Source: Gimesia algae (lineage in GTDB: Bacteria > Planctomycetota > Planctomycetia > Planctomycetales > Planctomycetaceae). From it: a stretch of 64,000 nt of DNA. Of the stretch, positions 21,923-23,743 are shown one piece after another. Numbering within the stretch: the stretch's first letter is position 1; every line of letters starts with the position of its first letter. The translations under genes and the position numbers were made by a program. The notes under the pieces are model-generated. The model worked only from the letters and a program-made list of their open reading frames with translations, searched no databases and was not told the origin of the DNA. The DNA is taken from the NCBI RefSeq assembly GCF_007746795.1, contig NZ_CP036343.1, positions 3,337,369 to 3,401,368 on the forward strand, read 5' to 3'.

Positions 21923-22195
21923 TCATTTTAAAGGGGCTTTCCTCTCAGTAATGGGGGGAGTCTTAGCCGCCATCTCTGCATTGAGCTGAATATACTCCCG
22001 CAACTGGTCCGGGACATCGTCCTCGTAATAAATGGCATCGACAGGGCATTCGGTGCGGCACGCGTCGCAGTCAATGCACTCCTCCGGATCGATGTAAAGC
22101 ATCTGGTCTCCTTCGCGGAAGCATTCGCAGGGGCAGACGACAACGCAGTCTGTATATTTGCAGCCAGAGCAGGCGGCGGTCACAACGTAGGCCAT
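21923..22195 (-). CDS. ferredoxin, 7Fe/8Fe type (FdxA-like)
   Basis: The start is at MAYVV (22195), with AAAGGACC upstream; a further start at 22210 would be a TTG. About 90 residues. Two cluster motifs are visible: CSGCKYTDCVVVCP (residues 10-23) and CIDCDACRTECP (37-48). The first spacing, with a Cys triad plus a distant Cys, fits the [3Fe-4S]/[4Fe-4S] ferredoxins of the FdxA group. An electron carrier in the cytoplasm; the partner is unknown. The acidic C-terminal helix is usual for the family. Confidence 0.9.
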   Translation of the reverse strand: MAYVVTAACSGCKYTDCVVVCPCECFREGDQMLYIDPEECIDCDACRTECPVDAIYYEDDVPDQLREYIQLNAEMAAKTPPITERKAPLK

Positions 22196-22333
22196 TTCAG
22201 GTCCTTTCAAAAACGAATTCCGAACTTAATTGATCTTTCAGGAGTCTTTTCTCCCAGGGTGTATCCGGTTTTCGGGTAAGATTGGTCAGAGAATCTTTCA
22301 AAAATTCGAGAAATCCTCCCATCTTCTTCTGAA

Positions 22334-23743
22334 ATGAACTTTGTCGATAGTCGGGAATCGTTTACGAAAGTGTCGAACTTGAATTCACAAGAGCTGCTGC
22401 AGATGTACCAGGCGGGCCAGAGCGAAGCGGCGACTGCCATTTTTGACCGCTATGTCGCCAGGCTCATCGCCCTGGCGCGCAGCCGCATTGGCTCCAAACT
22501 GGGTCGTCGCGTCGACGCCGAGGACATCGTACAATCGGCCTATCGCAGTTTTTTTGTGCATGCCAGTGGTGATGAGTACCAGCTGAAGGAGACAGGTGAT
22601 CTGTGGCGGCTGCTGGCCAGCATCGCACTTCACAAGCTGTATGGTCAGATTGAAAAACATACGGCGGCCAAAAGAAGCGTCCACCATGAAGATCCCACAG
22701 ACCTCGCCACTGCAGCAGCGAGGACGCCGGAACCGTCGGCAGGGGAAGTTGTCGCGATCATTGAAGAACTGCACACGGTGATCAGAGATCTTCCACCGGA
22801 AGAACGTATGGTCCTGATGGCCAGTCTCCAGGGTCAAGAGAACCCGGAGATCAGTAAATCCGTCAACAGATCAGAAAGAACGGTCCGCAGATTACTGGCA
22901 AACGCTCGGCGGAAGATTGAACAACGACTATTGCCTGGTGTCACCACCGATGTTCAATCCTCAACGTCCGTGGTGGAGTACGAGGCTCCCCTGCTCTATT
23001 CGGATTATGTTCTGGAGCAGCTTTTGGGTTCAGGTGGCATGGGAAAAGTATTCCGAGCCAGAGTAAAAGGTACAAAACAGAAGGCAGCCATCAAGTCGCT
23101 CCACAAATCACGTCAGTCCGATCGCCGCGCGGTGGCCCAGTTCGTCAAAGAGGCACAGCTGCTTACCAGGTTGCATCACGCCAATATTGTACGCGTCGAG
23201 GGACTCGGTCGATTCCCGGGAGGTGGATATTTTATGGTCATGGATTATGTGGAGGGCATCGACCTGCAGTCTCAACTGGACGTACAACCGTTTTCCATCA
23301 AAGCAGCGCTGGGCATTCTCAAAAATGTGACGGACGCAATCAGCTACGCGCACGACAAGGGAATCATTCACTGCGACCTCAAACCGGGAAATATTCTGCA
23401 GGACAAAAATGGTAATGTTCTGGTAACCGATTTCGGGTTCGCATTCCTGATCGCCAATGGTGCTACTGTGGAAAACAGCATTGGAGGCACAGCGGGATTT
23501 ATCGCTCCAGAGATATTGAGCCACCAGAGTCTGCCCACACCGGCAACAGACATTTACAGCCTGGGCGTACTTTTATGGACGCTGATCACAGGCAGACTGC
23601 CCGAGAAACCGTTCATACACCGCAGTAGGGAAATGGAACTGAAACCCGTTTTCCGTGTGGTAAAACGCTGTCTCTCCGATGATCCCCGGAAACGCTATCA
23701 GACAATCACCGAATTACAGCAGGAACTGATGGCGATACAATGA
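22334..23743 (+). CDS. ECF sigma factor fused to a serine/threonine protein kinase
   Basis: 469 residues in one uninterrupted frame. Residues 18-110 are sigma region 2 (VDAEDIVQSAYRSFF, -10 recognition helix region). Residues 136-200 are region 4 with a helix-turn-helix (LQGQENPEISKSVNRSERTV). A kinase domain follows (about 225-469): glycine loop GSGGMG (232-237), Lys254, Glu273, HCDLKPGN (346-353), DFG (366-368), APE (391-393). The catalytic loop is HCD rather than HRD, so it is a non-RD kinase. No membrane segment is present; the protein is cytoplasmic. Such a protein could phosphorylate itself to control promoter use. The ferredoxin gene is divergent. Confidence 0.88.
   Translation: MNFVDSRESFTKVSNLNSQELLQMYQAGQSEAATAIFDRYVARLIALARSRIGSKLGRRVDAEDIVQSAYRSFFVHASGDEYQLKETGDLWRLLASIALHKLYGQIEKHTAAKRSVHHEDPTDLATAAARTPEPSAGEVVAIIEELHTVIRDLPPEERMVLMASLQGQENPEISKSVNRSERTVRRLLANARRKIEQRLLPGVTTDVQSSTSVVEYEAPLLYSDYVLEQLLGSGGMGKVFRARVKGTKQKAAIKSLHKSRQSDRRAVAQFVKEAQLLTRLHHANIVRVEGLGRFPGGGYFMVMDYVEGIDLQSQLDVQPFSIKAALGILKNVTDAISYAHDKGIIHCDLKPGNILQDKNGNVLVTDFGFAFLIANGATVENSIGGTAGFIAPEILSHQSLPTPATDIYSLGVLLWTLITGRLPEKPFIHRSREMELKPVFRVVKRCLSDDPRKRYQTITELQQELMAIQ

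Follow-up and report, generated by a model that had tools for sequence, protein, structure and literature searches.

An ECF sigma factor and a Hanks-type Ser/Thr kinase are encoded in Gimesia algae as a single protein, by an uninterrupted, stop-free frame of 469 amino acids at positions 22334–23743 of the window, the whole stretch of 64,000 nucleotides analysed here. The frame lies on the forward strand, as do all features below unless stated. We propose that Ser68, and perhaps Ser72, in region 2.2 of the sigma half is phosphorylated by the attached kinase, which would raise the affinity of this half for RNA polymerase (RNAP) and activate a regulon; conserved sequence, together with analogy to known STPK-regulated ECFs, gives this reading a probability of roughly 0.4. 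As judged from the alignments, the most specific testable clue is the invariant Ser68 beside an intact DxxD, which was missed in the first-pass annotation.

The fused frame and its ancestry

The first-pass annotation had placed a sigma factor and a kinase in one polypeptide, and this holds, with both domains over their Pfam cut-offs within the single frame. Orthologs do not preserve the ATG at 22334: two have ATC in its place and another carries a stop immediately ahead of residue 4, and no start codon is common to all orthologs. The true start may therefore be GTG 22370 (Val13) or TTG 22379 (Leu16), at 22370–22381, which on the sequences may be better candidates than the doubtful ATG; the sigma domain is unaffected by the choice. 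The linker between the domains (residues 200–224; 22931–23005) is variable and has low pLDDT at 201–213; selection on it is relaxed, but its frame is intact in 6/6 Gimesia orthologs compared. In the Gimesia orthologs purifying selection acts on both domains (dN/dS about 0.1–0.15).

In its own genome (7.93 Mb) the gene is the only sigma-kinase fusion found. The nearest named locus, at 87% identity, lies in a Gimesia metagenome assembly; fused orthologous frames occur in 8 of the 17 genomes of the genus, and a further ten genomes of the family contain fused relatives with 36–44% identity. Of the matches listed for 392 genomes sampled from the phylum, all full-length ones fall in the same class, and a class sample of 397 genomes gave a strong match in 72, with about 67 full-length and nine family codes represented. 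On the sigma tree the fusions group together with few unfused members, one long-branched fusion lying just outside; on the kinase tree a branch with 96% support parts the fused kinases from separate and own-genome kinases, with one very long-branched exception. Such clustering on both trees is as co-inheritance predicts, and the pattern fits a single old fusion plus a few later splits or cases of the original two-gene state.

Three unfused members of the fusion clade (L276, L278 and L279) are two-gene operons of a sigma factor followed by a non-RD kinase; all three have Ser68, and their kinases carry about 160–220 extra N-terminal residues in open frame. At two other loci (L038, 1441–2970; L128, 1483–2952) an in-frame TAG lies between the sigma and kinase parts, or within the sigma part, which may reflect a sequencing error or a recent split. 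It is highly improbable that the frame as a whole was joined by sequencing error or that the locus yields separate sigma and kinase products. In a few relatives the frame is broken by a stop or there are two genes instead, and the linker contains GTG and TTG codons that could serve as starts; however, the many full-length fused frames in other genomes led us to reject a sequencing or assembly artefact, selection maintains both domains, and neither an ATG nor a conserved internal start was found at the linker in the orthologs compared.

Region 2.2 of the sigma half

The sigma half (residues 20–199; 22391–22930) comprises regions 2 and 4 and matches PF07638 at 20–199, Sigma70_r4_2 at 144–195 and TIGR02937, all over cut-off. 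Like ECF (group 4) sigma factors in general, it has sigma2 and sigma4 without sigma3, and it scores 51.6 bits against the curated cut-off of 183.75 bits for Sig-70_plancto1 (TIGR02984), which places it outside that family. A sequence search of the PDB with the sigma part gave nothing useful, whereas a Foldseek search with its model (mean pLDDT 89.5) returned E. coli sigmaE in an RNAP initiation complex as the best match, with M. tuberculosis sigmaH, SigW and others as further neighbours.

The usual region-2.2 motif DxxDxxQE reads DAEDIVQS in the fusion, with Ser68 (22535–22537) at the Glu position. This candidate phosphoacceptor is present in 70/70 fused relatives having that part (counts for kinase residues are out of 71), and is better conserved than the nearby acidic motif DAED (61–64; 22514–22525), where D61 is found in 62/70 and D64 in 65/70. 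A second conserved serine, Ser72 (22547–22549; 69/70), follows one helical turn later. When 43 other own-genome ECFs outside the clade are aligned, the position of Ser68 is occupied by Glu in 25, Asp in 6 and Ser in none. As a separate observation, D64 is lost in L263–L266 and D61 in L267, L268, L270 and L272, and Ser68 is kept in all; fusions of this kind are natural test cases for charge restoration.

Phosphorylation in this region has precedents. In ECF43, neutral residues replace the acidic DxxD and an STPK phosphorylates a Thr there, restoring the charge for binding to the beta-prime clamp (PMC8999054, PMC13147305), and STPKs switch on EcfP and EcfK by phosphorylating them in region 2.2 (PMC8103513, PMC13147305). 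In other STPK-associated ECF groups the DAED motif is retained, and a Ser or Thr within it or close by may be the phosphosite (PMC8103513, PMC8999054); for ECF59 and ECF60, Ser has been proposed as the target (PMC8103513). Charge restoration of the ECF43 type at DxxD was rejected for the fusion, where DAED is intact and the neutral DxxD with its Thr phosphosite is absent. Compared with EcfP, the fusion has Glu instead of Thr at the phosphosite, and its invariant Ser lies five residues further on. On the reading that we prefer, phosphate on Ser68 would resupply the negative charge for which most other ECFs have the Glu of DxxDxxQE; with it, the sigma half would bind the beta-prime clamp of RNA polymerase more tightly and turn the regulon on. 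Because most fusions retain D61 and D64, the sigma half need not be inactive without phosphate, unlike in ECF43.

Ser68 also occurs beyond the fusions. The sole other own-genome ECF with Ser at this position, L085, belongs to the sister clade and has a separate HRD kinase gene downstream. At this locus (L014/L085; G000:C1:4758696–4760671, reverse strand) the ECF, with the same region-2.2 Ser motif, is followed by a kinase of 853 amino acids whose C-terminal part resembles, by eye, a formylglycine-generating-enzyme domain. A separate downstream STPK is found at 43 of the 67 loci examined for unfused relatives (sister clade and others); Ser68 is present in 39/43 relatives with such a kinase and in 18/23 with none within about 2 kb. 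A plain contingency test of kinase against Ser68, in which kinship is ignored, was weakly positive (65/69 vs 18/23, p 0.04), but a tree-aware pair test could not link Ser68 to kinase presence, and Ser68 is therefore not claimed as a mark only of kinase-linked sigma factors. Since the same Ser is found in a sister clade with separate kinases, and sometimes with none nearby, it may have a structural role.

The persistence of Ser68 in relatives without a nearby kinase also favours the view that the kinase acts on other proteins, such as RNA polymerase, other sigma factors or promoter-bound factors, with the sigma half as a targeting module; Ser68 would then mark the lineage and serve in structure or RNAP contact. 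In keeping with this view, a wide range of substrates is common among Hanks-type kinases. We nevertheless consider it unlikely, since Ser68 is conserved even where the flanking acidic residues drift and is absent from the other own-genome ECFs outside the clade. A network in trans, in which other cellular STPKs phosphorylate Ser68 of the fusion and its sister ECFs while the fused kinase is chiefly a regulator of itself or of a partner, appears improbable: it accords with the separate, mostly HRD, downstream kinases of the sister clade and with the roughly 36 kinase domains of the genome, but, if purely in trans, leaves unexplained why the fusion has persisted in at least nine families.

The non-RD kinase half

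The kinase half (residues 225–466; 23006–23731) matches PF00069 at 225–426, over cut-off (E 3e-47). The best Foldseek match of the full-length model (pLDDT 75.5, pTM 0.54) is M. tuberculosis PknB (6i2p), through the kinase part; at this pTM the relative placing of the two halves is uncertain, so that the active site can only be presumed to extend to Ser68. All the motifs of Hanks-type Ser/Thr kinases are present, namely the Gly-loop, the VAIK lysine, the alphaC Glu (Glu273), the HxD Asp, the Asn (Asn353), DFG (366–368) and APE (391–393). The ATP-binding lysine, Lys254 (23093–23095), had been numbered correctly at first pass, and it is invariant in 71/71 fused relatives together with Glu273, His346, Asp348, Asn353, Asp366 and Thr386. 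The earlier description of a complete kinase is accurate for the catalytic motifs and less so for the segment between TG (419–420) and RCL (445–447), where the Gimesia orthologs fall about 17 residues short of most other fusions.

The catalytic loop reads HCD (346–348; 23369–23377) in place of HRD, as had been noted before, and with Cys347 ahead of the catalytic Asp the protein is a non-RD kinase. Across the 71 fused proteins residue 347 is Cys in 40, Gly in 26, Ala in 4, Ser in 1 and never Arg, while HRD is found in 26 of the 30 own-genome kinases examined. By these alignments the missing HRD arginine is a family trait of the fusions. The lysine of the catalytic loop is itself replaced in 23/71 fusions, among them L126, L132, L133, L263–L270, L272 and L273, which have HGDLTP or HGDLSP instead of HCDLKP. 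Non-RD kinases do not depend on activation-loop phosphorylation, and the fused kinase, having no HRD arginine, should therefore need no activation-loop phosphate; as this predicts, no conserved activation-loop phosphosite was found in the fusions beyond Thr386 of the P+1 loop. Judged by its residues, the fused kinase domain looks active.

Similar to PknB-type bacterial Ser/Thr kinases in fold and catalytic motifs, the fused kinase differs in having HCD for HRD and no PASTA part: it gave no PASTA match and scored 201.1 bits, far below the cut-off of 450 bits, with the PASTA Stk1/PknB model (NF033483). Pfam searches found no sensor or additional domain in the fusion. What stands of the first-pass reading is a real non-RD fusion of the planctomycete kind with no adjacent anti-sigma gene; phosphorylation of the sigma half by its own kinase, the replacement of an anti-sigma factor by this means and the entry of a signal here are still hypotheses. 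The activity of the fused kinase would be set by protein level, a partner, a ligand or a phosphatase.

The case for self-phosphorylation combines the invariance of Ser68 in the fusions and its absence from the other ECFs of the genome outside the clade with catalytic residues that never vary. It also draws on the 39/43 unfused relatives that have Ser68 beside a separate downstream kinase, on the Ser68 of the three two-gene operons, on the clustering of the fusions in both trees and on the precedent of EcfP and EcfK. The relatives that keep Ser68 with no kinase nearby, the DxxD retained by most fusions, the lack of a sensor domain and the uncertain placing of the two halves count against it. 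The sign of control could also be the reverse, with the sigma half active by default and shut off by the kinase domain, through region-2.2 phosphorylation or anti-sigma-like docking. Such an inhibitory switch would suit the mostly conserved D61 and D64 and the lack of an anti-sigma gene nearby. It is doubtful, however, as mere docking would not call for catalytic residues invariant in every fused relative, and where ECFs are known to be phosphorylated in region 2.2, the effect is activation (PMC13147305, PMC8103513).

Gene neighbourhood and kinship with STPK-associated ECFs

The upstream neighbour of the fusion is a divergent 4Fe-4S ferredoxin gene (Pfam Fer4; 21923–22195, reverse strand), kept in the Gimesia orthologs (also found in L042 and L043, and DNA-aligned in the others), and the downstream gene, which is convergent, belongs to no known family. 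The flanking genes include none for an anti-sigma factor, as the first-pass annotation had implied. An upstream alignment of 8 Gimesia orthologs revealed a candidate ECF-type promoter, CGAAC-N17-AGTC (22221–22246), conserved among the orthologs as a CGAAC-N17-NGTC block; this element may serve the divergent ferredoxin gene rather than the fusion. Conserved intergenic blocks in the Gimesia orthologs (window 22211–22333), CGAACTTA and TAAGATTGGnCAnAnAATCT, are a candidate promoter of the sigma-kinase gene, the ferredoxin gene or both. ECF-kinase pairing is common in the genome: ten other ECF genes, about one in five, are followed immediately by a Ser/Thr kinase gene in the same orientation (L069, L076, L081, L082, L084, L085, L087, L106, L111 and L117 of genome G000).

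Characterisation of STPK-regulated ECFs is only beginning (PMC8103513, PMC8999054), in agreement with the first-pass remark that such systems are little tested. The ECF43 proteins EcfP and EcfK, with PknT and PknS, resemble the fusion in combining an ECF with a Hanks-type kinase and in having region 2.2 as the site of interest; in contrast, the kinase of the fusion is attached and non-RD, DxxD is intact and there is no membrane sensor. Also comparable in gene context are ECF59, ECF61, ECF62 and ECF217, which lie beside STPK genes and have planctomycete representatives: the fusion is likewise planctomycete and STPK-associated, its STPK is encoded with the sigma factor and no anti-sigma gene is adjacent, and it shares with ECF59 a Ser as the target at issue (proposed for ECF59, PMC8103513). 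Compared by description, the fusion differs from these four groups in having its kinase in the same polypeptide and without the HRD arginine. ECF41, ECF42 and ECF57 are also presumed to be regulated by a C-terminal domain with no anti-sigma factor, but the C-terminal extension of the fusion is an enzyme and not a SnoaL-like, TPR or WD40 domain. The fusion would work like an STPK-regulated ECF but not like ECF43, a variation on a known theme. Its sequence fits the second STPK-associated type, the one that retains DAED: in the fusion DxxD is intact, the Glu of QE is changed to an invariant Ser and the kinase is attached in cis. Planctomycete sigma-kinase fusions have possibly been described before in the literature on ECF classification or on planctomycete ECF groups.

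To our knowledge, phosphorylation control of ECFs has been studied in only a handful of pairs, each of which belongs to the ECF43 group and has a separate kinase. In its fullest form, which we put forward tentatively, our reading holds that a non-RD, constitutively competent kinase phosphorylates its own Ser68 in cis and that phosphoserine replaces Glu, licensing RNAP binding without either an anti-sigma factor or a separate kinase; such a device would be ancient and class-wide, an alternative both to control by anti-sigma factors and to the ECF43 pathway. With one gene, one protein and two point mutants, the fusion offers a minimal system for a kinase switching its own sigma factor. With its Ser on the RNAP-contacting surface, it could show whether phosphoserine stands in for the region-2.2 glutamate.
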